Below are positions 187 through 18,521 of a DNA stretch of 18,979 nt, one piece after another. How positions within the stretch are numbered: the first letter of the stretch is position 1; every line of letters begins with the position of its first letter. The notes under the pieces were generated by a model that saw only the letters and a program-made list of their open reading frames with translations, did not search any database and was not told the origin of the DNA. Source of the stretch: an uncultured Eubacterium sp. Its GTDB lineage: Bacteria > Bacillota > Clostridia > Peptostreptococcales > Anaerovoracaceae. The DNA is taken from the NCBI GenBank assembly GCA_900542385.1, contig UQNP01000022.1:1-18979 (forward strand), given 5' to 3'. The position numbers and the translations under genes were made by a program.

Positions 187-1506
187 ATGAGTGAAAAAGA
201 AAGAAAAGAACAGGCAGTAGATAAAGATTATCCGCTGCAGCACGTACCTGCAAATGCCAGGCGCGGTCTCATCTCCATAAGCTGCGTACTTATAGGCTTC
301 ACATTTTTTACACCTACTATGGCTTCCGGAGCATCCCTGGGAGCTGCTTTCACATTTGACGAACTCATACTTATCATAGTCGCCGGCAGTCTTATCCTCG
401 GACTTTATGTAGCCGCTATGTGTCTTATCGGCGCGCGCACCGGTCTCACCTGCGTTCTTCAGTCAAAATACACTTTCGGGAAAGCCGGCGCAAAATGGTC
501 CGATATCATACTCGGAGGAACGCAGATTTTCTGGTATGCAATAACCGCAGAATACATGGGAAGTCTTTTCTCCATGGGTCTTGGACTTGACACTGCCGGA
601 TGGAAAATATTCTTCATAATCTTCTGGGGCGTGATCATGGGAGTTACCGCCATATACGGCGTAAAAGCTATGTCCATAGTATCATATGTAGCTATCCCTC
701 TCATGGCTGCTCTAATGATCATCGTAATGATAATGGCCGTAAGAGAAGCAGGAAGCCTCGATGCGATCAGAGCTATAACTCCGTCATCATCTATGACAGT
801 CACTTCTGCTATAACAATTATCGTAGGCACTTTCGCATCAGGCGGAACACAGGCCGGAAACTGGGCAAGATTTGCAAAAACCGGAGCAACAGCTTTCATA
901 GCAGGACTTTTGGGATTCCTCGTAGGAAACGGCGTAATGATATTTTCCGGAATGCTCGGCGGTCTCGTATTCCATACAGGCGACCTCATAGAGCTTATGA
1001 TATCCATGGGAATAGTATTCTGGGCTCTCATCATACTCACCCTGAACATATGGACGACAAATAACGCGACTGCTTACGCTTTCGGAGTCGCCGGAGCCGA
1101 AATGTTCAACAAGAACAATAAAAACCCATTTATCATAGGCGGTATAATCATAGCCCTTATAATGGCTATTTTAGGCATTTCAAATTATTTCCTGCCTATG
1201 CTCAATCTTCTCGGAACTTTCGTTCCTCCTCTCGGAGGCGTCATAATCGGCGATTACTTCTTCGTATGCAAAGGGAAAATCCCACGGTTGGAATACGTCC
1301 ATTTCAAAACATGGAGGATAGCTCCTATAATCGCATATATACTTGGATGCGCAGCAGCCTACTTCGGAGGAGTATTCGAAATCGGCATGCCTGCACTTCA
1401 GGGAATAATAATATCCATGCTCGCAGTACCTGTAATACATATCATTTTCGTAAAATTCGGTATAAATGATGAGCACGACGTGGATGAAAACGCTGAATAT
1501 ATTTAA
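187..1506 (+). CDS. codB: NCS1 family cytosine-type permease
   Basis: Inner-membrane importer of a pyrimidine base, probably cytosine or a methylated derivative, by cation symport as in the NCS1 family. The 439-residue protein has about twelve hydrophobic segments. It matches E. coli CodB along its length: the start VPANARRGLISIS, the motif IGARTGLT near residue 80, LGGTQIFW near 110, SGGTQAGNWARF near 220, NIWTTNNATAYA near 295 and PPLGGVIIGDYF near 355. Length is close to CodB (about 420) with a short charged tail. The start is fixed by AAGGAGGT at 175-182. It is followed after 31 bases by the deaminase, which supports a base-uptake role. The exact substrate cannot be read from the sequence; a purine or another pyrimidine is possible. 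Confidence 0.88.
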   Translation: MSEKERKEQAVDKDYPLQHVPANARRGLISISCVLIGFTFFTPTMASGASLGAAFTFDELILIIVAGSLILGLYVAAMCLIGARTGLTCVLQSKYTFGKAGAKWSDIILGGTQIFWYAITAEYMGSLFSMGLGLDTAGWKIFFIIFWGVIMGVTAIYGVKAMSIVSYVAIPLMAALMIIVMIMAVREAGSLDAIRAITPSSSMTVTSAITIIVGTFASGGTQAGNWARFAKTGATAFIAGLLGFLVGNGVMIFSGMLGGLVFHTGDLIELMISMGIVFWALIILTLNIWTTNNATAYAFGVAGAEMFNKNNKNPFIIGGIIIALIMAILGISNYFLPMLNLLGTFVPPLGGVIIGDYFFVCKGKIPRLEYVHFKTWRIAPIIAYILGCAAAYFGGVFEIGMPALQGIIISMLAVPVIHIIFVKFGINDEHDVDENAEYI

Positions 1507-1537: not shown

Positions 1538-2812
1538 ATGTCTGAACTTTTGATCAAAAATGCGAAGCTTCGTTATTCAAACCACTTGACCGATATACTC
1601 ATAAAAGACGGTAAATTCGAAAAAATAGGTGCGGTTTCTGAAGTTCCGCAAAACACCGAAACCATAGATGCCGCAGGTAATATCGTGACTCCGCCAGTTG
1701 TCGACCCCCACGTGCATCTCGATGCTGTGCTCGTATCCGGTCTGCTCAAAAGGAAGAACGAAACAGGAACACTTCTTGAAGCCATAGATATATGGAGCGA
1801 CTGGAAAAAAGATCTGACAAAAAAAATGCTCAAGGAAAACGCAAGAAAAGTCATAGACTGGTATATAGCTAACGGTGTGCTCCGTGTACGCACCCACGCA
1901 GACTGCACCGATCCCACTCTCCTTACTGTGGAAAGCCTGTTAGAGATCCGTGAAGAAGTGAAAGATCTCATCGACATACAAGTGGTAGCATTTCCGCAAA
2001 ACGGCATTTTCACAGATCCGGCAAACCTGGATCTGCTTAAGGAAGCTGTAAATATGGGCGTCGATGTGGTGGGCGGGGCTCCCCACATAGAATTCACCAG
2101 AGAAGACGGTGTGAAGGATGTGGAGACCGTATACGACATTGCAGAAGAAAACGGACTTATGATAGATATCCACATCGATGAAACAGGCGATCCTCATTCG
2201 AGATTCGTCGAAGTTATGGCCAAAGAGAGCATCAGCCGCCGCATGGGTGAAAAATCAACGGCGAGCCACACTACCGCAATGCACAATTACAACAACGATT
2301 ATGCTTACAAACTCATCGGAAACATTGCAAAGTCCGGCATGAGCATGATAACCAATCCTTTCGACAACGCCGTTCTCCAAAACAGAATGGACGGATATCC
2401 AAGAAAACGAGGTCTTACAAGAGTCGATGAAATGCTCGATCGCGGTATAAATGTAGCCATAGGCCATGATTCGATAATGGATCCATGGTATTCAATGGGT
2501 AAAGCCAGCATGACACTTGCAGCTTTCCTGCTGTTCCACATGGGACACATGAACGGCGCAGCGCAGATACAGCAGCTTTTCGATATGATCACCGATAACT
2601 CCGCAAAGGCTATGAGTCTTGATAACTACGGTATAAAAGAAGGCAATCAGGCCGATCTGGTCATCTTCGACGCAGCAACGGAAAGCGATATAATAAGACT
2701 TCAATCCGAATGTACTCATGTCATAAGAAAAGGTAAGATCATATGCAGGACGTCGCCTGCCGAAAGAAAACTCCTTTACGATACGCCTTCATATGTGGAT
2801 TTTAAATTATAA
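1538..2812 (+). CDS. codA: CodA-like amidohydrolase, cytosine / 5-methylcytosine deaminase
   Basis: Hydrolytic deamination of a cytosine-type base to the corresponding uracil-type base, in the cytosol. The 424-residue protein aligns with E. coli CodA almost without gaps. The metal and catalytic residues are present: H58 and H60 (PHVHLD), Q154 (AFPQ), H212 and E215 (DIHIDE), H244 (ASHTTAMH) and D311 (GHDS), plus W317 (DPW). The next residue, S312, replaces CodA Asp314, the residue that contacts the pyrimidine C5 side. CodA homologues lacking that Asp were reported to deaminate 5-methylcytosine, so the natural substrate may be 5-methylcytosine. The start chosen is ATG 1538 with AGGAGGT at 1526-1532. 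An ATG at 1466 would overlap the permease and has no such site. It probably forms an operon with the permease. Confidence 0.9.
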   Translation: MSELLIKNAKLRYSNHLTDILIKDGKFEKIGAVSEVPQNTETIDAAGNIVTPPVVDPHVHLDAVLVSGLLKRKNETGTLLEAIDIWSDWKKDLTKKMLKENARKVIDWYIANGVLRVRTHADCTDPTLLTVESLLEIREEVKDLIDIQVVAFPQNGIFTDPANLDLLKEAVNMGVDVVGGAPHIEFTREDGVKDVETVYDIAEENGLMIDIHIDETGDPHSRFVEVMAKESISRRMGEKSTASHTTAMHNYNNDYAYKLIGNIAKSGMSMITNPFDNAVLQNRMDGYPRKRGLTRVDEMLDRGINVAIGHDSIMDPWYSMGKASMTLAAFLLFHMGHMNGAAQIQQLFDMITDNSAKAMSLDNYGIKEGNQADLVIFDAATESDIIRLQSECTHVIRKGKIICRTSPAERKLLYDTPSYVDFKL

Positions 2813-2912: not shown

Positions 2913-3932
2913 TTGAACATAAAAGACGTCGCCGAAAAATCAGGTTTTTCCATCACAACAGTTTCACGCGTGCTTAACAACCCTGAAGCCGTGTCAAAAA
3001 AAACACGGGAAAAAATCCTCAAAGTAATGGAAGAACTGAATTATACACCCAACTGGTTTGCACGAAATCTCCAGACATCGAAAGCAAACGTCATCGCAAT
3101 GATGATACCCGATACTCTCGAGCAATCCAATATGGAGATCACCCAAGGTGTAGAAAATATCGCAAGACAAAACAAATACAGCATAATACTCTGCAACACT
3201 GAGTACGACCGCAATATCGAACTGGAATATATAGACACTCTTGTCCAGCGAAAAATAGATGGACTCATCTTAGTATCCTCAACTTTAAACAGCGACGATA
3301 TTTCAAAGCTGAAATTGCACAAAACACCTTTTTTGTTCATAGGAAAAACAGATCATAATGAAAACGAAACCATCGTATACACTAATTACGATACAGCAAC
3401 CGAAGAAGCCATAGATCATCTCGCAGAGCTGGGGCGAAAAAAAATAGCAGTGATTTTATCCGAACATCCCGAATCAATAAACGCAGAAAAACTCAAAGGA
3501 TACAAAACTTCCATTGAAAAACGCGGTTTAAAATACGATCCGTCATACATCATAAAATCAAAGAATACCATTGAAGGAGGATATGTATCCACCAGCAAGC
3601 TCCTGGCAAAAGAAGACAGACCCGATGCAATATTTGCATCGACCGACACCATCGCGTTCGGCGTCATAGAACGTATGAAACAGGATGATCTCACTCCAAA
3701 AGATCTTGCTGTCATAGGATACGATGACCTCGATGTGGGAACAGTCATCGAGCCTAAACTCACGACCATCACAAAACCATCGTATCGAATGGGGCTTACA
3801 GCAGCACGTCTCCTGTTCGACATCATCGAAGACAAAAGTCTTCTCGATTCTCCGCAGGCGATAATGATAAAATCACGTCTTAAAATCAGGAAATCCTGCG
3901 GAAACGAAAAAAGACTCAAAGAAATCTGGTAA
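2913..3932 (+). CDS. LacI/GalR family transcriptional regulator
   Basis: A 339-residue DNA-binding regulator. Residues 1-50 form the family helix-turn-helix and hinge (MNIKDVAEKSGFSITTVSRV, then NNPEAVSKKTREKI). From about residue 58 a periplasmic-binding-protein-like ligand domain follows, with the expected segments VIAMMIPD, IDGLILVSS, RKKIAVI, PDAIFASTD and LAVIGYDD. The start is TTG at 2913 behind GGGAG at 2899-2903. It lies between the deaminase and the flavoenzyme, and its TAA stop at 3930-3932 merges into the next gene's ribosome binding site. It probably controls this cluster, and the palindromes at 58-89 and 146-157 are candidate operators (inference). The effector may be a pyrimidine base or nucleoside; sugar ligands are more usual in this family. 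Confidence 0.9.
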   Translation: MNIKDVAEKSGFSITTVSRVLNNPEAVSKKTREKILKVMEELNYTPNWFARNLQTSKANVIAMMIPDTLEQSNMEITQGVENIARQNKYSIILCNTEYDRNIELEYIDTLVQRKIDGLILVSSTLNSDDISKLKLHKTPFLFIGKTDHNENETIVYTNYDTATEEAIDHLAELGRKKIAVILSEHPESINAEKLKGYKTSIEKRGLKYDPSYIIKSKNTIEGGYVSTSKLLAKEDRPDAIFASTDTIAFGVIERMKQDDLTPKDLAVIGYDDLDVGTVIEPKLTTITKPSYRMGLTAARLLFDIIEDKSLLDSPQAIMIKSRLKIRKSCGNEKRLKEIW

Positions 3933-3942
3933 GGAGGATATC

Positions 3943-5070
3943 ATGCACGGTACAAATATAATGGGAATTCCAATGAAAAATCCTCTGATAATAGCTCCCG
4001 GTCCATGGAGCAGAGGAAAACTTCTCAAAAACGCTCTCGAATGTAATGCCGGAGCTATAATAACCGAGACTGTCGTAAGCGAACCTTATCCTGATACACG
4101 CCCGCGATACGCATACGATCCTAAAAACGGCGGACTGCAAAACATAAGGCTGTACAGTGCCCTCGATCTTGAAGGCTGGCTCTGTGAACTTGAAAAGGCA
4201 GACAAAACCTCAAGATACGGCTCTATTTCAAAGCTTATCGTATCCATAATGGCATCTACTCCGTCCGAACTCGGTTACATAGCGCGAAAAGTCGAAAAAA
4301 CCGGCGTTGACGGAATAGAGATCGGTCTCGCCTGCCCCATGGGAGAAGGTCCGGAAATAGTGGCCGAAAATCCCGAAAAAGTCTACGAATACACTAAAGC
4401 AGCCGTAAGAGCTGTGAATATCCCTGTATCAGTAAAGCTATGCGCCACCGCAAATCTGCTCTCCTCCGTAAGAGCTGCTGAAAAAGCAGGCGCATCAGGT
4501 ATAAGCGCGATAGATACCCTAAGATGTATCCTCAGCATAGACACCGAAAGCGGCCTGCCCGGACTTCCTACATATGGAGGATATTCAGGCGCTCCGATAC
4601 GCCCGATCGGTCTTGCTACCGTCGCCGCTATAGTTCAGACAACAAAGCTCCCTGTTGCAGGTATAGGCGGTATAGAAAACTGTGAAAATCTCATTGAATA
4701 CATCATGGCCGGAGCTTCCTGCGCCGGCATAGGAACACAGATCCTACTCAAGGGCTACGGGATCATAAAGAAGACACTCGAAGATTTTTCTGATTTCACA
4801 TCCAAAAAAAATATATCCGACCTTGAAAATATTCGCGGATGTGCATTGAAGAAGTTAAAATCTTTCGAAGAAATAAAGCTGGAGCTCAAACAGGCCGAGC
4901 TTGCAGAAAACTGCACGGATCATGAATGTCAGAAATGCGTTATGTGCTGTCTGCAAAATGCGATCCGCTTGGACAGCGGCCGCATAAAAATAGATCCGTC
5001 GCTTTGCGACGGATGCGGACTGTGTCTGGATATATGCCCGGATGCCAGGATAAGGCTTTCGTGGACATAG
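3943..5070 (+). CDS. Dihydropyrimidine / dihydroorotate dehydrogenase-like flavoprotein with C-terminal Fe-S domain
   Basis: A 375-residue FMN TIM-barrel enzyme of the DHOD/PreA superfamily that probably interconverts a pyrimidine and its 5,6-dihydro form. Barrel residues 1-280 include IGLACPMG (C131), VSVKL (K165), TYGGYSGAPIRPI (210-222), very like dihydropyrimidine dehydrogenase, and the phosphate-binding GIGGIENCENL (240-250). Residues 324-365 form a ferredoxin-like tail. C355, C358, C361 and C365 give one canonical CxxCxxCxxxCP; a second group (C324, C329, C332, C335, C336) is irregular. C131 aligns with the catalytic Cys of class 1 DHODs, whereas the loop Cys of dihydropyrimidine dehydrogenase (human C671) has no clear counterpart. 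No PreT partner lies beside it. The start has AAGGAGG at 3931-3937. Pyrimidine reduction is inferred from context; the substrate could differ. Confidence 0.75.
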   Translation: MHGTNIMGIPMKNPLIIAPGPWSRGKLLKNALECNAGAIITETVVSEPYPDTRPRYAYDPKNGGLQNIRLYSALDLEGWLCELEKADKTSRYGSISKLIVSIMASTPSELGYIARKVEKTGVDGIEIGLACPMGEGPEIVAENPEKVYEYTKAAVRAVNIPVSVKLCATANLLSSVRAAEKAGASGISAIDTLRCILSIDTESGLPGLPTYGGYSGAPIRPIGLATVAAIVQTTKLPVAGIGGIENCENLIEYIMAGASCAGIGTQILLKGYGIIKKTLEDFSDFTSKKNISDLENIRGCALKKLKSFEEIKLELKQAELAENCTDHECQKCVMCCLQNAIRLDSGRIKIDPSLCDGCGLCLDICPDARIRLSWT

Positions 5071-5978: not shown

Positions 5979-7148
5979 TCAGTCCAAAACTTTTTTCAGT
6001 ATTTCAAGTCCTTTATCTATCTCATCATAATTAATCGTAAGAGGCGGCAGAAGCCTTATCTTGTCCTTTGCCGTAAGTATCATAAGTCCTTCAGACAAAG
6101 CATTTTCAACGACTTCAGAGGCTTTTTTATCTTCCAGCTCCACACCCAGCATAAGTCCAAGGCCAGATACGCTCTTTACCTGCGGGATATCCGTGAGCTT
6201 TTCGATAAAATAATCCCCCTTGCTTCTGACATCCTCTAAAAATTTATCATCGATCCTCTTTAAAACCTCCGCAGCTCCCGCACAAGCCACAGGATTTCCT
6301 CCGTAAGTCGTACCATGGCTTCCCGGAGTCAGCACATCGCAGCACTTTTCACCGAAAAGCGCTCCGCCGATAGGAAGACCGCCGCCTATTCCCTTTGCGA
6401 AAGTTACGATATCAGGTTTCACTCTGAAATATTCATAAGCAAAAAATCTGCCTGTCCTTCCTACTCCTGTCTGTACCTCATCGACGATAAAAAGTATATC
6501 TTTTTCTTTACATATATCGTATGCAGCCTTGACGAATTCCTCATCAAGATTCATCACTCCGCCTTCACCCTGTATCATTTCCATCATCACAGCGCATACA
6601 TCTTTGTCCGCAAGCTCCTTGAGCTGCTGCACATCATTGGCTTTACAGTATCTGAATCCCCCAAGAAACGGAGTAAAATATTTATGATAGTTGTCCTGTC
6701 CGGTGGCAGTTATCGTTGCCATCGTCCTGCCGTGAAAAGAATTTTCAAGGGTTATAATGGTATTTGCATTTTTCCCTTTATTTGTCGTACCGTATTTTCG
6801 CGCTGTTTTTATAGCAGCTTCATTAGCCTCAGCTCCTGAATTGCCGAAAAAAACTTTCGACATTCCCGTCCTTTTCGTCAGCATATCAGCTACCTTCACC
6901 TGCGGCTCAGTATAAAACAGATTAGACACATGCTGCAGCTTATTGAGCTGCTTGGTTACCGCTTTTATCCATTCGTCATCGCAAAAGCCAAGGCAGTTCA
7001 CTCCTATCCCGGAAGTAAAATCTATATATTTTCTGCCATCCGCCGAAATGCATTCAGCACCTTTGCCTTTTTCTGCGACCATGTCGTATCGTGAATAAGT
7101 AGAAACAATCTTTTCTCCGTCAAGTTTTTTGATCTCATTGCTGTTCAT
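5979..7148 (-). CDS. argD: Acetylornithine aminotransferase
   Basis: PLP-dependent class III aminotransferase that converts N-acetylglutamate semialdehyde to N-acetylornithine in arginine synthesis; cytosolic. The 389-residue form shows the ArgD signatures [11 protein letters not shown] near residue 45, [18 protein letters not shown] at 100-117, SFHGRT near 137, GEGGV near 194, [12 protein letters not shown] at 222-233 (D223 contacts the PLP pyridine nitrogen) and the Schiff-base lysine K252 in [13 protein letters not shown]. The start is uncertain. ATG 7148 overlaps argB by 14 bases and has GAGGAAAG upstream at a long spacing; ATG 7172 would add eight residues. Overlap with argB implies translational coupling. 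ArgD proteins often also use succinyldiaminopimelate. Confidence 0.93.
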
Positions 7149-8031
7149 TCCAGTATCTTTCCTCGCTTTCATGTAATATTGCTGTTCCTATTCCTTTGTT
7201 TGTAAATATTTCAAGAAGCAGGCTGTGAGGTATCCTGCCGTCCATTATATGTATCCTTGAAACACCGCTTCGCAGCGCATCTATACAGTTCTCTATCTTC
7301 GGCAGCATCCCGCCTGAAATTATCCCCTTTTCTATGAGGTCATATGCTTCATCTATGTAAAGTTCGGATATGACCGAACCTGCATCGTAGGGATTTTCTC
7401 TTACCCCCTCAACATCAGACAGATATGCAAGCTTTTCAGCTTTGAGAGATGCCGCAATAGCTCCCGCCGCCTCATCGGCGTTGATGTTGTAAGCCATACC
7501 CTTGTCATCTATACCTATAGGGTATATTATCGGCAGGAAATCATTTTCGAGAAGATCCATGATTATCTTTGTATTTACGTCTTTTATGTCTCCGACAAAT
7601 CCTATATCCTTACCGTCAGGACATTTTTTTTCAACCTTGAGAAGTCCGCCGTCCATCCCGCTTATTCCCGCTGCATTTATCCCCAGTGCCTGTACTTTCG
7701 ACACAAGATCCTTGTTTACCTTTCCCAGCACCATCTCTGCAAGCTCCATCGTCTCAGAATCGGTAACGCGAAGTCCGTTCACGAACTTCGTTTCCATACC
7801 CGCCTTATCTACCCAGCGGCTGATCTCCTTGCCGCCGCCGTGCACGATGACCGGTTTGAATCCTACGAGTTTCAAAAGAACCACATCTTCTATTACACTG
7901 GTTTTAAGCTCTTCATCTATCATAGCGCTTCCGCCGTATTTTACAACTATTATTTTCCCGCTGAATCTTCTTATATAAGGCAGTGCTTCAACGAGTACTT
8001 CAGCTTTTTCAAGATATTTTTCATCTACCAT
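7135..8031 (-). CDS. argB: Acetylglutamate kinase, arginine-sensitive type
   Basis: Phosphorylates N-acetylglutamate with ATP, the second step of arginine synthesis. The 298-residue protein has the amino-acid kinase signatures [49 protein letters not shown] and GGMLPKI. Its N-terminus carries the helix ending [11 protein letters not shown] that is found in hexameric, arginine-inhibited kinases. Feedback at this step is expected here because ArgJ recycles the acetyl group. Two starts are possible: ATG 8031 with GGAG about six bases upstream (chosen), or TTG 8043 with AGGAG that lies at the argJ stop. The 3' end overlaps argD. Confidence 0.95.
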
Positions 8032-8045
8032 ACAAAACTCCAATC

Positions 8046-9260
8046 TCAGCTCCTGTAATCACCGTTTATCCTGACATAATCGTAGGTCAGATCACATCCC
8101 CACGCTGTAGCGCAGGCTTCTCCCTGATTCATATCTATATTTATTATTATTTCTTCTTCAGACAATATTTCCGACGCTTTTTCCTCGCTGTATTCCTTAT
8201 GTCTTGACCCTTCGCACACAAGTACGCTTCCTTTGGATGAGCTCATCTCCACATCTATATTATCTGCGGAAAAATCCCCATCTGCATATCCTACAGCACA
8301 AAGCACCCTGCCCCAGTTAGCATCCGCTCCAAAAACAGCAGCTTTGAAAAGATCCGATGAGATCACGCTTTTGCTGATCTTCGATGCAGTCTCTTCATCA
8401 GGTGCTCCCGCCACATTGCATTCTATCAGCTTTGTCGCTCCTTCTCCGTCTCGCGCTAACTTCTTTGAAAGATTCACAGTTACCATTGACAATGCCTTCT
8501 TAAAGGTTTCAAAAGCCTGCCCTTCCTGTTTTATCTCACTGTTTTGGGCTTCTCCGTTGGCCAGGACAGCTACAGTATCGTTAGTTGAAGTATCTCCGTC
8601 TATACATATTTGATTATAACTCTTCTTTATATCTTCTTTAAGGGCCTTTTTTAGCATTTCAGAAGATATGCTCACATCCGTCGTAATGAATGAAAGCATA
8701 GTCGCCATATTTGGATTTATCATTCCGCTTCCTTTAGCCGTGCCTCCTATCCTGCACATCTTTCCATCAAGCTCAAATTCAACTGCCGTATATTTAGGAA
8801 CTGTATCGGTAGTCATTATTGCCTCCGATGCCGCTTTTTCCCCTTCGCTGCTGAGCTTATCCACAGCTTCAGGTATGCCATTTTTGAACGGCTCTATAGA
8901 AAGTTCCTGCCCTATGACTCCCGTCGAGCATATGACTACATCCTTTTCATCTATCCCTAAAGCTTCTGCTGTGATCCTGCACGTTTCCTCTGCGATCTCA
9001 ACTCCTCCCGAAGCACAAGTATTGGCGTTGCCGCTATTGCATATTATTGCCATAGCTTTACCGTCGGATATATTCTTTTTCGTTACTGCTATGGGAGCTC
9101 CTTTCACCTTGTTTTTCGTATATACTCCCGCAGCACTGCATAAACTGTCGCTGACTATCAATGCCAGGTCTTTCTTTTCCCTGTCTTTTTTTATACCGCA
9201 CCAGACTCCTGCTGCTTTGAATCCTTTCGGAGCACAAACTCCTCCGTCTATGTACTTCAT
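8046..9260 (-). CDS. argJ: Glutamate N-acetyltransferase / amino-acid acetyltransferase
   Basis: Transfers the acetyl group from N-acetylornithine to glutamate, closing the acetyl cycle of arginine synthesis. Many members also make acetylglutamate from acetyl-CoA. The 404-residue precursor is expected to cut itself between A186 and T187 in [10 protein letters not shown], making T187 the nucleophile of the beta chain. Other family segments are [12 protein letters not shown] (71-82), [22 protein letters not shown], the [11 protein letters not shown] segment, ARDGEGATK and [13 protein letters not shown]. The argC stop is three bases upstream and the ribosome binding site is weak, so translation is probably coupled. 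Whether it is mono- or bifunctional cannot be read here, but no argA is in the operon. Confidence 0.95.
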
Positions 9261-9263
9261 ATC

Positions 9264-10190
9264 TTATACCAGTCCTTTCTCTTCATCCAGTCCGAGCATT
9301 ATGTTCATATTCTGTATCGCTGCTCCCGATGCTCCCTTGCCGAGATTGTCATAAAGAGCTACGAGCAATATATTTTCATCATTTCCCGTTACCGTTATAT
9401 TCAGCTTATTGGTTCCCTGAAGCTTATTTGCCGCTATAAATCCGCCGTCATCAAGTGATTCTTTGACCTCTACCATCTTTTGACCTTCATAGTATTCAAA
9501 GAATATTTTCTTCACTTCCGCTACTCCTGCATTTAATCCTTTCACCGGAACAGTAACCTCCATTCCGCTGTAATAATCTGCTACTACGGGTATAAAGGCC
9601 GGAGGAGTTTTCAGTCCGGTCATTGCAACTATTTCAGGAATATGCTTGTGCGACTGAGAGATACCGTACTGTCTCGGACTTTCAAGCTCGTCCTTTTCAC
9701 ATCGCCCGTCACTTTCATATGCAGCTATCATTTTCTTTCCGCCTCCGCTGTATCCGGTAAGAGAAAAAGCGGAAAAGAGATAATCATCACCTGCCAGTCC
9801 GGATTCAATCAGAGGTTTTATGAGCATTATGACTCCTGTCGCATGACATCCGGGAACGGCCACTCTGTTGCTTTCCTTTATCTTTTCCCTCTGTCCTCTG
9901 CAAAGTTCCGGCATGCCGTATACCCATCCGCTGTCTGTCCTGTGCGCAGTCGATGTATCGAGTATCCTGCATTCCGCAGGCGCTGCCGCAGCTATTTCCC
10001 TTGACGCAGAATCCGGAAGGCATAAAAAGGAAATATCGGCTTTTTTTATAAATGACAGCCTTTCCTCCAGATCCTTACGTCTGCTGCTGTCTATTTTGAG
10101 AAGCTCTATATCATCACGTCTGCTGAAATATTCATGTATCTTCAGACCTGTCGTGCCTTCTGCTCCATCTATAAATACTTTATATTTCAT
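9264..10190 (-). CDS. argC: N-acetyl-gamma-glutamyl-phosphate reductase, short type
   Basis: NADPH-dependent reduction of acetylglutamyl phosphate to the semialdehyde, the third step of arginine synthesis. The 308-residue protein has the N-terminal nucleotide fold (VFIDGAEGTTGLKI, residues 5-18), the catalytic cysteine C115 in VAVPGCHATG, SLTGYSGGGK near 146, HKHIPEI near 183 and a C-terminal DNLGKGASGAAIQNMNIM. The length and the start of the fold fit the shorter ArgC type (about 310 residues) rather than the 345-residue type. ATG 10190 is chosen because GGAGG lies six bases upstream; a TTG at 10202 would overlap that site. First gene of argCJBD. Confidence 0.94.
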   Translation of the reverse strand: MKYKVFIDGAEGTTGLKIHEYFSRRDDIELLKIDSSRRKDLEERLSFIKKADISFLCLPDSASREIAAAAPAECRILDTSTAHRTDSGWVYGMPELCRGQREKIKESNRVAVPGCHATGVIMLIKPLIESGLAGDDYLFSAFSLTGYSGGGKKMIAAYESDGRCEKDELESPRQYGISQSHKHIPEIVAMTGLKTPPAFIPVVADYYSGMEVTVPVKGLNAGVAEVKKIFFEYYEGQKMVEVKESLDDGGFIAANKLQGTNKLNITVTGNDENILLVALYDNLGKGASGAAIQNMNIMLGLDEEKGLV

Positions 10191-10208
10191 CTGTTCCTCC
10201 AATGTAGT

Positions 10209-13863: not shown

Positions 13864-13898
13864 ATAATGTAGTGTTTTTACAGCAAAGGAGGATAACC

Positions 13899-15284
13899 GT
13901 GGATAAACTTTCCGGACATATTGCCTTAAAAGATCTTCTCCCTATACTTGACGGCATCAGCGATGCTGTATTTATAGACAACGGAGAAGGCAGATGCCTG
14001 TGGTGCAACAGCACCTGTGAAGATCTTTATGATATCTCCGTTTCAGATATAAGGGGAAAATCTGTAGATGAACTGGAGAAAAAAGGCATTTTCACACCTT
14101 CAGTCACACGACGTGTCCTTGATGAAAAAAGAGAGATAACAATACTTCATGAAAACAAATACGGCAAAAAACTTCTGACTACAGGAACGCCTATCTTTGA
14201 CGATACCGGCAAAATCTCTCTCATACTGACCACATCGAGAGATATAACACGACTTACTGAAGATGAAGAAAAATCAAAATCCGCCTCTAATACTATGATA
14301 AGCATGAGCGCCATCACAAACACCTATTCTCCAGACAGCGGGATCATAGCAAACAGCACCCCTATGAGAAATGTCATGATGCTTACCAAAAGACTTGCAT
14401 CGGTAAATTCCACTGTTCTGATAACAGGTGAATCGGGAGTGGGAAAGGGAATGATAGCTAAAATACTTCACGAAGAAGGCAACCGATGCGACAAACCTTT
14501 TGTAACGGTAAACTGCGGTGCGATACCGGAAAATCTTATAGAATCAGAACTCTTCGGATATGTCGCCGGTGCTTTTACAGGATCCCGCGCCGAAGGCAAG
14601 CAGGGTCTTTTCGAAGTAGCTCAGAACGGTACTATATTCCTCGATGAAATCTCAGAGCTTCCTTTAAATCTTCAGGTAAAACTTCTCAGAGTCATACAGG
14701 AACGCGAAATAACGCCTGTAGGCGGCATAAAACCAATACCTATAAATGTAAGGATAGTATCAGCCACCAATAAAAACCTCATGGAACTCGTACGAGAAGG
14801 AAAATTCAGAGAAGACCTTTACTACAGACTGAATGTAGTTCCTATCAACGTACCGCCTCTTAGAGACAGACCGGAAGATATACTTCCTCTCATACAGACC
14901 AACCTGGCTAAATACAACGAACATCTTCATGAAAGCAAAACTATAAGTTCCGAAGTCCTCGCAGTACTGCTTAAATATCAGTGGCCCGGAAACATAAGAG
15001 AACTTCAGAATATAATAGAGCGCCTTATAATAACGACCAACGAAGACGTGATAACAGAAGAAAATCTTCCTATATTTATAAAACAGGAAGCGGAAACCAA
15101 TGCAAATATGAATACAGATCTTTCCCTTTCCGCTGCTATGGCAAAAGCCGAAAAAGACATACTTCAGGAAGCTCTTTCAAATTATAAATCTACAAGAGCT
15201 ATGGCCAAAGTACTGCAAGTAAGTCAACCGACTATCGTCAGAAAGCTTCACAAATACGGTCTTTCAAACACTCCTGCCGACTGA
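13899..15284 (+). CDS. Sigma-54-dependent transcriptional activator, PAS-AAA+-HTH
   Basis: Enhancer-binding protein that uses ATP to open promoters held by sigma-54 polymerase. Of 461 residues, about 12-120 are a PAS sensor (ILDGISDAVFIDNGEGRCLW, then GKSVDEL and TRDIT-like SRDITRL). Residues 150-390 are the AAA+ domain: Walker A GESGVGKG (177-184), GAFTGS (224-229, the sigma-54 contact loop, with Ser for the usual final Ala), Walker B TIFLDE (245-250), and FREDLYYRLNV (303-313). Residues 425-455 form a Fis/TyrR-type helix-turn-helix (STRAMAKVLQVSQPTIVRKL). The start is GTG 13899 with AAAGGAGG at 13885-13892; an ATG at 13872 precedes that site. It probably drives the two downstream genes; the ligand sensed by PAS is unknown. 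Confidence 0.93.
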   Translation: MDKLSGHIALKDLLPILDGISDAVFIDNGEGRCLWCNSTCEDLYDISVSDIRGKSVDELEKKGIFTPSVTRRVLDEKREITILHENKYGKKLLTTGTPIFDDTGKISLILTTSRDITRLTEDEEKSKSASNTMISMSAITNTYSPDSGIIANSTPMRNVMMLTKRLASVNSTVLITGESGVGKGMIAKILHEEGNRCDKPFVTVNCGAIPENLIESELFGYVAGAFTGSRAEGKQGLFEVAQNGTIFLDEISELPLNLQVKLLRVIQEREITPVGGIKPIPINVRIVSATNKNLMELVREGKFREDLYYRLNVVPINVPPLRDRPEDILPLIQTNLAKYNEHLHESKTISSEVLAVLLKYQWPGNIRELQNIIERLIITTNEDVITEENLPIFIKQEAETNANMNTDLSLSAAMAKAEKDILQEALSNYKSTRAMAKVLQVSQPTIVRKLHKYGLSNTPAD

Positions 15285-15315
15285 CGCACATACGACTTTC
15301 AAAACACTTTTTTGC

Positions 15316-15350
15316 GATACAAAAACGTATCAGCGATACAATTTTGTATC
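15316..15350. promoter_or_regulatory. Two adjacent activator-binding palindromes (UAS)
   Basis: GATACAAAAACGTATC (15316-15331) and GATACAATTTTGTATC (15335-15350) share the arms GATAC/GTATC. Their centres are 19 bp apart, close to two helical turns, so both would face the same side of the DNA. Both are preceded by GC. They are the best candidates for the binding sites of the activator encoded just upstream (inference). Confidence 0.7.
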
Positions 15351-15410
15351 AAGTCTTACAAACAAGCGTTTTTAACCGATAATATGTGTTAATTTTTATA
15401 CAATCCTTTA

Positions 15411-15436
15411 GCGATACAATTTTGTATCGCTTTTTT
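15411..15436 (+). terminator. Third palindrome, also a terminator-like hairpin
   Basis: GCGATACAATTTTGTATCGC (15411-15430) contains the same 16-bp element as the second upstream site. It can form an 8-bp stem with a four-base loop followed by TTTTTT (15431-15436). It may therefore end the activator transcript and also serve as an enhancer site. It lies about 125 bases after the activator stop codon. Confidence 0.6.
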
Positions 15437-15597
15437 ATTTTTCTATCCAAAATCATATATTTCTTTAATATAAATTTAATATTTGAAAATTCTTTAATTT
15501 ATGTCTTTTTCAAGCTGAAATCCTTTGTTTTCAACGTTTTACAAAATTTAAAGTTTTCATCTTTTATTTTAAAAAAAATCACATTTATTCACATGGT

Positions 15598-15613
15598 TGG
15601 CACACAAATTGCG
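15598..15613 (+). promoter_or_regulatory. Sigma-54 (-24/-12) promoter
   Basis: TGGCACACAAATTGCG has GG at 15599-15600 and GC at 15611-15612 with exactly ten bases between. It matches the consensus TGGCAC-N5-TTGC at every conserved position. Transcription should start near 15624, leaving a leader of about 66 bases before the aldehyde dehydrogenase. The activator gene immediately upstream supplies the required partner. Confidence 0.88.
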
Positions 15614-15689
15614 TATTATATAGTTAGTGCTGAAAGGCATTTAATTAAATGATTGTTATTTTATAAAATAAAAAAGGAGGACTTTAAAA

Positions 15690-17114
15690 ATGGCAATGAA
15701 TGCACAGGAATATGTTGCAGGATTAGTTGAAAAGGGCAGAAAAGCTCAGGCTATCGCAAACAACTTCACACAGGAAGACGTTGATCTTATCACGGCTGCT
15801 GTTACTTACAACCTCACTAAGCCGGAAAAGGCTAAGATGTATGCAGAAATGCTGGTTGAAGAATCCGGCATGGGTATAGCAGAAGACAAAGTTGCTAAGA
15901 TCTACGGTAAAGTTTGGGGAGCTTATATCCAGATGAAGGACAAGAAGTCAGTTGGCCTCATCGATGACAACAAAGAAACAGGAATGCAGACTTGGGCTAA
16001 GCCTATGGGTGTTGTCGCTGGTATCATGCCTGTAACAAACGGTGAAGCTACTCCTATCGTTAAATCAAACATGGCTCTTAAGACGAGAAACGCTATAATT
16101 CTGGCACCTCATCCTAAGTGCAAGAAGCTCAACGTTACTATCGTTGACGAAATCAGAGCTACACTTAAGAAGCTTGGATATCCTGAAGATCTGGTTCAGA
16201 GCGTAGATCCTGAATGGGTTAAACTTGAAACTTCACAGCAGCTGATGAAGCAGTGCGACTTCATACTCGCAACAGGCGGCGAAGCTCTCGTAGAAACTGC
16301 TTACTCCTCCGGAACTCCTGCTATCGGCGTTGGTGTTGGTAACTGCGTATCTGTTGTAACAGGCAAGACTCCTATGGACAAGGTTGCTGAAATGATCGTT
16401 AAATCAAAGGCTTATGACAACGCTACATCATGCTCAACTGAAAACAACATCGTTGTATTCGAAGACTGCTATGATGAGTTCGTAAAGGAAATGGAAGCTC
16501 ACGGAGCTGTTCTCTTCAAGGAAGGCTCAGAAGAAAAGATGAAGCTGCAGAAGGCTATGTGGCCTAACACTCCTAACGACCATGTTCTCAACAGAGCAAT
16601 CGTTGCTCAGAACGCTGAAACTATCGCTAAGATCGCAGGCATCGATGTTCCTGCAGGAACTAAAGTTCTCATGGCTGAAGAAAACGGCGCAAGCCTTGAT
16701 CACCCATTCGGCGGAGAAAAACTTTCCCCTGTATCAGGTATCCAGAAAGCTAAAGACCTCGACGAAGCTATCGAAAAGGTTATGGCATGCCTCGAATATC
16801 AGGGCAAAGGCCACAGCGTTGGTATCCACACTAACGATGATGAAGATGTCAACAGACTGGCAGCAGTAGCTCCTGTAACCAAGTGCGTTGTTAATCAGCC
16901 ACAGTGCCTGACTAACTCCGGCGGCTGGGACTGCGGATTCCCTGTATCAATGACTCTCGGATGCGGTACTTGGGGCGGCAACAGCGTATCTCACAACGCT
17001 ACTTGGCATGATCTGCTCAACTTCACTTATGTTTCAAGACAGATCCCTAACTGGAAGCCGGAAAAAGTTGAAGACTTTATCGATGCTGATGTAATCGCTA
17101 AGGTTGATGCGTAA
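15690..17114 (+). CDS. CoA-acylating aldehyde dehydrogenase
   Basis: NAD(P)-dependent oxidation of an aldehyde to its CoA thioester. The 474-residue protein has the acylating-type fold: PMGVVAGIMPVTNGEATPIVK (around 105-125, quoted in part as PMGVVAGIMPVTN), NAIILAPHPK, the nucleotide-site motif ATGGEALVETAYSSGTPAIG near 195-213 and the catalytic cysteine C248 in ATSCSTENN. The C-terminal part has TNSGGWDCGFPVSMTLGCG-like Gly/Cys-rich sequence. The best family guess is the sulfoacetaldehyde (SauS-like) or EutE/malonate-semialdehyde-like group. With an aminotransferase next door the aldehyde probably comes from an omega-amino acid such as taurine or beta-alanine. AAAAGGAGG at 15672-15680 precedes ATG 15690. 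Codon use is strongly biased to GCT, GTT, ATC and AAG, unlike neighbouring genes, which suggests abundant expression. Which aldehyde is used is not settled. Confidence 0.82.
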   Translation: MAMNAQEYVAGLVEKGRKAQAIANNFTQEDVDLITAAVTYNLTKPEKAKMYAEMLVEESGMGIAEDKVAKIYGKVWGAYIQMKDKKSVGLIDDNKETGMQTWAKPMGVVAGIMPVTNGEATPIVKSNMALKTRNAIILAPHPKCKKLNVTIVDEIRATLKKLGYPEDLVQSVDPEWVKLETSQQLMKQCDFILATGGEALVETAYSSGTPAIGVGVGNCVSVVTGKTPMDKVAEMIVKSKAYDNATSCSTENNIVVFEDCYDEFVKEMEAHGAVLFKEGSEEKMKLQKAMWPNTPNDHVLNRAIVAQNAETIAKIAGIDVPAGTKVLMAEENGASLDHPFGGEKLSPVSGIQKAKDLDEAIEKVMACLEYQGKGHSVGIHTNDDEDVNRLAAVAPVTKCVVNQPQCLTNSGGWDCGFPVSMTLGCGTWGGNSVSHNATWHDLLNFTYVSRQIPNWKPEKVEDFIDADVIAKVDA

Positions 17115-17150
17115 ATCATTCCATTACACAGAAAATTGATTCTTTGTTTC

Positions 17151-17179
17151 GGGAAGAGGTCTTCCCTCTTCCCCTTTTT
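17151..17179 (+). terminator. Intercistronic terminator-like hairpin
   Basis: GGGAAGAGG (17151-17159) and CCTCTTCCC (17165-17173) form a perfect 9-bp stem with a five-base loop, followed by CTTTTT. It lies between the dehydrogenase stop and the aminotransferase start. It would attenuate transcription into the second gene or stabilise the first message. The following bases, CCTTTTT with AAAAAGG (17173-17189), could fold over the next ribosome binding site. Confidence 0.65.
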
Positions 17180-17198
17180 ATAAAAAAGGAGATTTAAA

Positions 17199-18521
17199 AT
17201 GTCAACAATTAGAGAAAAAGATAAAAAATACAATCTGCATTCATGGTCAGCTCAGGGCAAACTGAATCCTATAGTTGTTACGAAAGCAGAAGGAATCTAC
17301 TTCTGGGATGAAGACGGCAAAAGATATGCAGATATGTCATCACAGCTCGTAAACTCCAACCTCGGTCACGGCAACAAGGCTATAATAGACGGTATCATCG
17401 AACAGGCTCAGAAAATTCCTTTCATGGGACCTGGATTCGCTATGGACTGCAGAACTGACGCAGCAGAAGCTGTTGTTGAACTTACTGGATTCAAAGGCGG
17501 AAAATGCTTCTTCGTAAACGCTGGTGCTGAAGCTAACGAAAACGCTATAAAGATCGCAAGACAGTATACCGGTAAGCAGAAGATCTTCTCACAGTACAGA
17601 TGCTATCATGGATCATCTGCTGGCGCAGGTATGCTGACAGGTGAACCAAGACACTTCTTCAACGAGCCTGGCGGCCCTGGATACGTTAAATACGACGGAC
17701 CTTATGAATACAGAGCTCCTAAAGCTTGTAAGTTCGCAAACGAAGACGAAGTTGCAGACTTCTACCTCGAACTTCTTGAAAACCAGATCCTTTACGAGGG
17801 ACCTGAACATATCGCAGCTATATGGCTCGAATCAGTAGTAGGCTCCAACGGCGTACTTATCGCTCCTACTAAATGGTATCAGGGCGTAAGAGCTCTCTGC
17901 GACAAATATGAAATCCTCATGGTTGCAGACGAAGTTATGGCAGGATGGTACAGAACCGGTAAGGCTTTCGCATTCATGAACTTCGGATATGAGCCTGACA
18001 TGATCACATTCGCTAAAGGTGCTACTTGCGGATACGTTCCTCTCGGCGGCGTTGTTGTACAGGAAAAGATCGCTAAGTTCTTCGACGACACTTCAATGGG
18101 ATGCGGACTTACTTACTCAGCTCATCCAATGGGCTGCGCTGCTGCAGTGGCTACTATCGGCGAATACAAGAACCTCGATATAGAAAACAAGATGAAGCCG
18201 ACAAGCAAACTTCTTGCTGACATTCTCGATGGTTATGTAGAAAGTCATCCATGCGTTGGACAGGTAAGACATATCGGTCTGTTCTCCGCTATAGAACTCG
18301 TTAAGGATAAGGCTACAAGAGAGCCTCTCGTTCCTTATGGAAGGGACCCTGAAGGCATCATGAAGAAGATCCTTGGAATGCTGGTAGCTGAAGGATTCTG
18401 GACTTATGATCATGAAAATATGCTCATCGTTGCTCCTCCTCTCATCATCACTGAAGAAGAGCTGAAGGAACAGATGGCTATCATGGATAAAGTTCTCGAT
18501 TCAGTAGACAAGATGATTTAA
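17199..18521 (+). CDS. Class III aminotransferase, taurine/beta-alanine (omega-amino acid) type
   Basis: PLP enzyme moving a terminal amino group to a 2-oxoacid and making the semialdehyde for the preceding dehydrogenase. The 440-residue protein starts HSWSAQGKLNPIVVTKAEGI, as in taurine/omega-amino-acid transaminases, and then has DMSSQLVNSNLGHG (45-58), FFVNAGAEANENAIKIARQYTG (104-125, quoted in two parts in the family), YHGSS (136-140), ESVVGSNGVL (211-220), VADEVMAGWYRTGKAF (242-257; D244) and the PLP lysine K273 in TFAKGATCGYVPLGG. It is not an ArgD paralogue by these motifs. AAAGGAG precedes ATG 17199. Codon bias matches the dehydrogenase. Taurine:pyruvate, taurine:2-oxoglutarate, beta-alanine and 3-aminoisobutyrate activities are all possible; sequence alone does not choose among them. 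Confidence 0.8.
   Translation: MSTIREKDKKYNLHSWSAQGKLNPIVVTKAEGIYFWDEDGKRYADMSSQLVNSNLGHGNKAIIDGIIEQAQKIPFMGPGFAMDCRTDAAEAVVELTGFKGGKCFFVNAGAEANENAIKIARQYTGKQKIFSQYRCYHGSSAGAGMLTGEPRHFFNEPGGPGYVKYDGPYEYRAPKACKFANEDEVADFYLELLENQILYEGPEHIAAIWLESVVGSNGVLIAPTKWYQGVRALCDKYEILMVADEVMAGWYRTGKAFAFMNFGYEPDMITFAKGATCGYVPLGGVVVQEKIAKFFDDTSMGCGLTYSAHPMGCAAAVATIGEYKNLDIENKMKPTSKLLADILDGYVESHPCVGQVRHIGLFSAIELVKDKATREPLVPYGRDPEGIMKKILGMLVAEGFWTYDHENMLIVAPPLIITEEELKEQMAIMDKVLDSVDKMI

Follow-up and report, generated by a model that had tools for sequence, protein, structure and literature searches.

A CodA-family deaminase with serine at the CodA Asp314 position in a probable LacI-regulated cytosine-catabolic operon of an uncultured Eubacterium sp.

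Introduction

CodA-type cytosine deaminases are characterised by an Asp at position 314, and CodA carrying this residue is described in PMC6186785 as essentially unable to use 5-methylcytosine. The same source reports that Asp314->Ala replacement gave CodA 5-methylcytosine activity (citing Hitchcock 2014), and that the Klebsiella 5-methylcytosine deaminase has a serine at this place, while the D314A replacement is described in PMC4283509 as making codA a better 5-fluorocytosine marker. In the structure of the permease CodB, as reported in PMC9379551, Q105, W108 and F204 are the key cytosine contacts, N280 acts through water and Phe33 faces the C5 side of the base; methylcytosine is stated there not to bind, presumably because of a clash with Phe33.

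The stretch of DNA analysed here (the window) comprises 18,979 nucleotides and contains a putative operon encoding a CodB-type permease, a CodA-family deaminase, a LacI-family regulator and a PreA/dihydropyrimidine dehydrogenase (DPD)-like flavoprotein. A sequence-only reading had named a permease, a regulator and a pyrimidine-reductase-like enzyme as neighbours, which holds, but had predicted an operon for 5-methylcytosine salvage, as the deaminase lacks the Asp in question; CodA homologues without this Asp from Rhodobacter and Corynebacterium reportedly deaminate 5-methylcytosine.

Results and discussion

Active site of the deaminase

The deaminase (424 aa; positions 1,538–2,812, forward strand) starts with an ATG at 1,538 preceded by AGGAGG, the mechanical start of the open reading frame being 1,466. 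As aligned with PDB chains by phmmer, it matches E. coli CodA over almost the full length (E about 1e-107) and contains all the metal ligands (HxH, His and Asp) and the catalytic Gln, Glu and His of CodA-type cytosine deaminases. Residues Q154, H212, E215, H244, D311 and W317 correspond to Q156, H214, E217, H246, D313 and W319 of CodA at the constant offset of two that had been described from Q154 to D311, while the HxH metal pair (H58/H60) is offset by three owing to a one-residue gap. H58, H60, Q154, H212, E215, H244 and D311 are invariant in a 23-sequence alignment. The metal ligand D311 (codon GAT; 2,468–2,470, forward strand) is followed by Ser312 (codon TCG; 2,471–2,473), which is aligned with CodA Asp314, so that codons and alignment alike bear out the earlier observation that this CodA-type trait is absent from the window deaminase; the best-scoring PDB chain is 1r9z, whose entry title names a D314S mutant. 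Among the curated families, the protein scores 470 against PRK07572 'cytosine deaminase' (cutoff 438) and 454 against PRK09230 (cutoff 483).

Ser occupies the Ser312 position in all of the 120 nearest homologues among the matches listed (best 120 of 6410). The genome_contigs search found 34 loci, two of which (L033 and L034) were dropped, their match being limited to residues 20–61; across the remaining 32 the residue is Ser in 26, Asp in five and Cys in one. Ser312 is thus a trait of the clade and no chance oddity. As the discriminating Asp is lost while the catalytic residues stay, activity of this enzyme on 5-methylcytosine in vitro is plausible, and it may also act on 5-fluorocytosine in vitro.

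The Ser is common to the window deaminase and to the K. pneumoniae 5-methylcytosine deaminase Kpn00632, whose operon was located in a Klebsiella record (the encoded protein is identical to PDB 4r7w over all 412 residues aligned) and is of the codB-PucR-codA type. In a 62-row tree, which took in 20 of the 120 listed homologues, the Kpn00632-type enzymes join Asp-type CodA (support 100/100), while the window deaminase lies in a separate clade (support 100/86) together with 48 Ser and two Asp rows; no branch of this tree unites the window deaminase with Kpn00632 while leaving CodA outside. Kpn00632 further deviates from CodA near the active site, with Cys and Ser at N273 and N277, Gly at H249 and Ala-Gln at G309-H310 (window numbering; AQDS motif), whereas the window deaminase has none of these changes and keeps the CodA residues. 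Tree placement and active-site comparison thus indicate a Ser common to separate branches, without the other Kpn00632 changes. The alignment with CodA and Kpn00632, which the sequence-only reading had proposed as a check, supports it as regards the Ser and speaks against it as regards the remaining active-site residues.

These data bear on the reading of the operon as one for 5-methylcytosine salvage or catabolism, in which a 5-methylcytosine-specific deaminase would convert the imported base to thymine, to be reduced subsequently. This reading agrees with a Ser shared with Kpn00632 and with all 120 homologues among the matches listed, and with the 5-methylcytosine activity that loss of Asp314 is reported to confer on CodA (PMC6186785). 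It is nevertheless rather unlikely, as the other active-site changes of Kpn00632 are missing and Kpn00632 clusters with CodA, apart from the window enzyme; the permease and the operons of close relatives, described below, also count against it.

As a separate observation, a Kpn00632-like codB-PucR-codA operon encoding a deaminase 88% identical to the K. pneumoniae protein is flanked by IS1 transposase genes in L048, and 29 plasmid records contain matches to its deaminase with an identity of 99% or more.

Permease

The permease gene (439 aa; 187–1,506, forward strand) encodes an NCS1-family CodB-type cytosine permease scoring 368 bits against the NCBIfam cytosine permease equivalog (cutoff 326) and matching PDB 7qoa with an E of 1e-54; identity with E. 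coli CodB is 30%. F33, Q105, W108, F204, T278, T279 and N280 of P. vulgaris CodB are all conserved, and with them the cytosine-contact side chains and the Thr pair of the sodium site. By contrast, Q105E, T279I, N280Q and G29S are found in all three Kpn00632-type permeases compared as control (E. hormaechei, K. pneumoniae and A. haemolyticus); F33 alone is not diagnostic, since these three retain it. At two further Kpn-type loci (L138 and L142) no CodB-type permease was seen. Among 27 further permeases from deaminase loci, 23 retain F33, Q105, W108, F204, T279 and N280; among these residues, L008, L019 and L025 differ at N280 only (Gln in L025), and the site is lost in L017. Ten Ser-type deaminases (L009, L011, L012, L014, L016, L020, L023, L024, L027 and L129) are paired with permeases that are 48–52% identical to E. 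coli CodB and have the cytosine site. The cytosine-type site of the window permease argues against import of 5-methylcytosine, as methylcytosine is reported not to bind CodB (PMC9379551).

The permease also bears on the idea that the deaminase works mainly on another amino-imine heterocycle, e.g. creatinine. In Tissierella creatinophila (L025:343-3893), an Asp-type deaminase of the window clade is encoded near a creatininase gene (TIGR04448, 302 bits, cutoff 235) with a CodB-type permease gene between them, and in Anaerotruncus (L138:5418-7704) a Kpn-like AQDS-type deaminase is encoded near a creatininase homologue 51% identical to that of T. creatinophila. These neighbourhoods suggest a creatinine role for some CodA-family members, as the CodA homologue of C. 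glutamicum is said to have. For the window enzyme such a role is very improbable, as the 15 window proteins scanned include no creatininase, hydantoinase or sarcosine gene product and the permease carries the CodB site, with N280 present where L025 has Gln.

Operon organisation and regulation

The LacI-family regulator (339 aa; 2,913–3,932, forward strand) contains PF00356 and Peripla_BP domains, and a LacI homologue adjoins the PreA-like gene in all 50 loci examined. Eleven of the 32 loci have the order codB-deaminase-LacI-PreA-like, L008 being from Spirochaetota and the remaining ten from Bacillota; the other 21 do not show it, the contig ending early in some and the flanks being complete in others. 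Upstream of the permease gene, a perfect 32-bp palindrome with 16-bp arms (58–89; core TGAAAATATTTTCA at 67–80) is the probable operator of the LacI-type regulator; an arm of 16 bp was never reached in 5000 dinucleotide shuffles of positions 1–186, the largest being 15, once. A second operator core, GAAAATATTTTC, lies at 146–157, 78 bp downstream of the first. Paired GAAAATATTTTC-type cores precede codB in the window, L001, L002, G656 and G677, i.e. in Ser-type and Asp-type operons alike; in L002 and in G677, one of the two copies deviates by a single base. The window-type core is missing from 17 other upstream stretches examined, many of which have a TGTAA-type palindrome instead. Palindromes of the type TGTAA..TTACA (exact or with one mismatch) are located upstream of codB or LacI in L007, L008, L011, L020, L023, L028 and L129, and the two palindrome types look as if regulator and operator had changed jointly in the clade of the window.

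G656 and G677 have the arrangement codB-codA(Asp)-LacI-PreA-like, where the deaminase shares 58% identity with E. coli CodA but 41 and 39% with that of the window, the permease is an E. coli-type CodB, and LacI (59 and 55%) and the PreA-like protein (57 and 55%) resemble those of the window. The PreA-like tree was built from 49 of 71 rows, after removal of five duplicates, three further same-genome rows and 14 pyd-linked rows. In it, the window, L001 and L002 (Ser) form one clade with G656 and G677 (Asp), with support 100/100, and the Asp label requires three or more changes along starred branches. Further Asp-type cases are G486 and, with a rearranged gene order, L028. A regulator and operator type common to operons with exchanged deaminases suggests, from sequence comparison, a common substrate, which is most likely cytosine, since Asp-type CodA is reported to be essentially unable to use 5-methylcytosine. 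As the permease has been exchanged along with the deaminase, this argument rests on LacI, the operator and the PreA-like protein. That close relatives have an Asp-type CodA in an operon of this kind also weighs against a 5-methylcytosine operon.

PreA-like flavoprotein

The product of the fourth gene (375 aa; 3,943–5,070, forward strand) is a PreA/DPD-like flavoprotein containing the FMN-type barrel and the C-terminal (dicluster) ferredoxin domain of dihydropyrimidine dehydrogenases (PreA, PydA and PydAc), but its PreA score of 198 bits falls short of the cutoff of 335. Asn609, Asn668, Asn736, Thr737 and Cys671, which we take to be the substrate residues of DPD, are not found as a full set in this protein; Asn609, Thr737 and Cys671 (C131) are kept, while Asn668 is replaced by Gly (G128) and Asn736 by Asp (D191). 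The link of this protein to uracil reduction is accordingly weak. The DPD Asn736 position is Asp in 18/18 codA-linked copies and Asn in 32/32 pyd-linked copies. The fourth gene encodes a DPD-like flavoprotein paralogue that goes with codA-linked operons, and its product may recognise cytosine.

It is conceivable that the flavoprotein produces 5,6-dihydro cytosine (or 5-methylcytosine), and that the deaminase hydrolyses the dihydrobase, with Ser312 leaving room for a non-planar C5. The Asp/Asn contrast favours such a reduction-first route, as Asp could take a hydrogen bond from the 4-amino group. The pyd-linked copies are, however, confined to one clade of the PreA-like tree, so that the contrast may be a single event; of the three distant relatives located in hydantoinase clusters, L072 has Asp and the other two Asn; some codA-linked copies have Ser, Ile or Ala at the proton-donor position Cys671; and the Asp191-type protein occurs with Asp-type CodA too. 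A reduction-first route is accordingly quite unlikely. A broader proposal, speculative and itself unlikely, is that the codA-linked PreA-like proteins form a new type of reductase which would bind aminopyrimidines (cytosine or 5-methylcytosine) through the Asp in place of DPD Asn736, cytosine being reduced before or alongside deamination, and that Asp changed to Asn when the LacI-reductase module moved beside uracil pathway genes.

Pyrimidine breakdown in related genomes and other window genes

Dihydropyrimidinase is found over the cutoff in nine and PreA in seven of 14 related genomes. G001, with a deaminase sharing 82% identity with that of the window, has a second LacI-PreA-like pair, behind which lie a hydantoinase/carbamoylase-family gene, PreT and PreA; its dihydropyrimidinase gene adjoins another carbamoylase-family gene; a carbamoylase-family gene next to PreT-PreA is seen in both G001 and G014. 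The reductive pyrimidine pathway encoded in the relatives is, by its predicted gene functions, one of breakdown and not of salvage.

Several side observations concern these neighbourhoods. In some genomes (L131:3618-4946 and L137:1994-3331), the PreA-like gene and PreT are separated by the gene of a YgeY-like hydrolase, which scores under its family cutoff; other genomes have a carbamoylase-family gene at this place. In G001, argJ and argD are located upstream of the LacI-PreA-like-PydC-PreTA cluster (L067), and in the window an arg cluster (argD, B, J and C; 5,979–10,202) lies close to the codA operon. In the region 13,872–18,521, the gene of a PrdR-like sigma-54 activator (424 bits; cutoff, 795) precedes an acylating sulfoacetaldehyde-dehydrogenase-like gene (464 bits; cutoff, 600) and the gene of a class-III aminotransferase (PRK06062; score 491, cutoff 472), possibly for catabolism of the amine, taurine or beta-alanine type. 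The description of the host as a spore-forming anaerobe is reasonable, as sigG and sigE score over their cutoffs in the window, with a SpoIIGA-like gene under its cutoff.

Assignment of the operon

With a probability of roughly two in three, the operon is a LacI-regulated cytosine-catabolic operon. Cytosine would be imported by the CodB-type symporter and hydrolysed to uracil and ammonia at the CodA-family metal site, as the conserved residues imply, and the product would enter the reductive pyrimidine pathway whose genes are seen in relatives. Ser312 would open the pocket on the C5 side, so that 5-fluorocytosine and, to some degree, 5-methylcytosine are probably accepted in vitro, the physiological substrate being cytosine. 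This assignment draws on the permease, which scores over the equivalog cutoff and has the contact residues of CodB, unlike Kpn00632-type permeases; on the Asp-type CodA under the same operator type, LacI and PreA-like gene in close relatives; and on the reductive pyrimidine breakdown encoded by relatives. On the other side, fixation of Ser in the close clade suggests that more than plain cytosine was selected for, and LacI, the operator and the PreA-like protein could serve two substrates.

The prediction of a 5-methylcytosine deaminase thus stands as regards the lost Asp and a plausible activity in vitro, but not as regards the physiological substrate, for which the context favours cytosine. 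The proposed 5-methylcytosine salvage operon is not supported, in view of the cytosine-type permease, the Asp-type CodA in the same operon, the different clade and operon type of Kpn00632 and the breakdown genes in relatives. Caution is therefore advisable in calling 5-methylcytosine deaminases by one residue, as here the residue matches while the permease site and the deaminase swap favour cytosine. The analysis also singles out a small DPD-like family whose base-recognition residue tracks codA versus uracil-degradation neighbours in the sample examined, a pattern that provides an assay-ready hypothesis on cytosine handling in anaerobes.

Comparison with known systems

E. coli CodA (PDB 3o7u and 1k6w; D314S mutant 1r9z) shares about 42% identity with the window deaminase but belongs to a separate clade, with Asp314 where the window enzyme has Ser, and with Phe, Ile and Phe where the nearby L80, A181 and I184 of the window enzyme stand; the window operon adds a LacI-type regulator and a PreA-like partner. 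K. pneumoniae Kpn00632 (PDB 4r7w, 4r85 and 4r88) differs from the window deaminase in clustering with Asp-type CodA and in its AQDS motif and further changes, and its operon differs in the altered permease site and the PucR regulator. Proteus vulgaris CodB (PDB 7qoa) has the same cytosine-contact side chains and sodium-site Thr pair as the window permease, while its Ser34, Ser203, Ala207 and Asn282 are Thr, Thr, Gly and Ala in the latter. The clostridial ferredoxin-dependent PydAc (PMC7332683) and PreA/DPD resemble the window flavoprotein in the FMN-type barrel, the C-terminal dicluster ferredoxin domain and the lack of an NAD(P)H domain. Unlike PreA/DPD, the window protein contains Gly at DPD Asn668 and Asp at Asn736 and scores under the PreA cutoff, and it has one ferredoxin domain where PydAc of C. 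chromiireducens, compared by its description, has two (PMC7332683).
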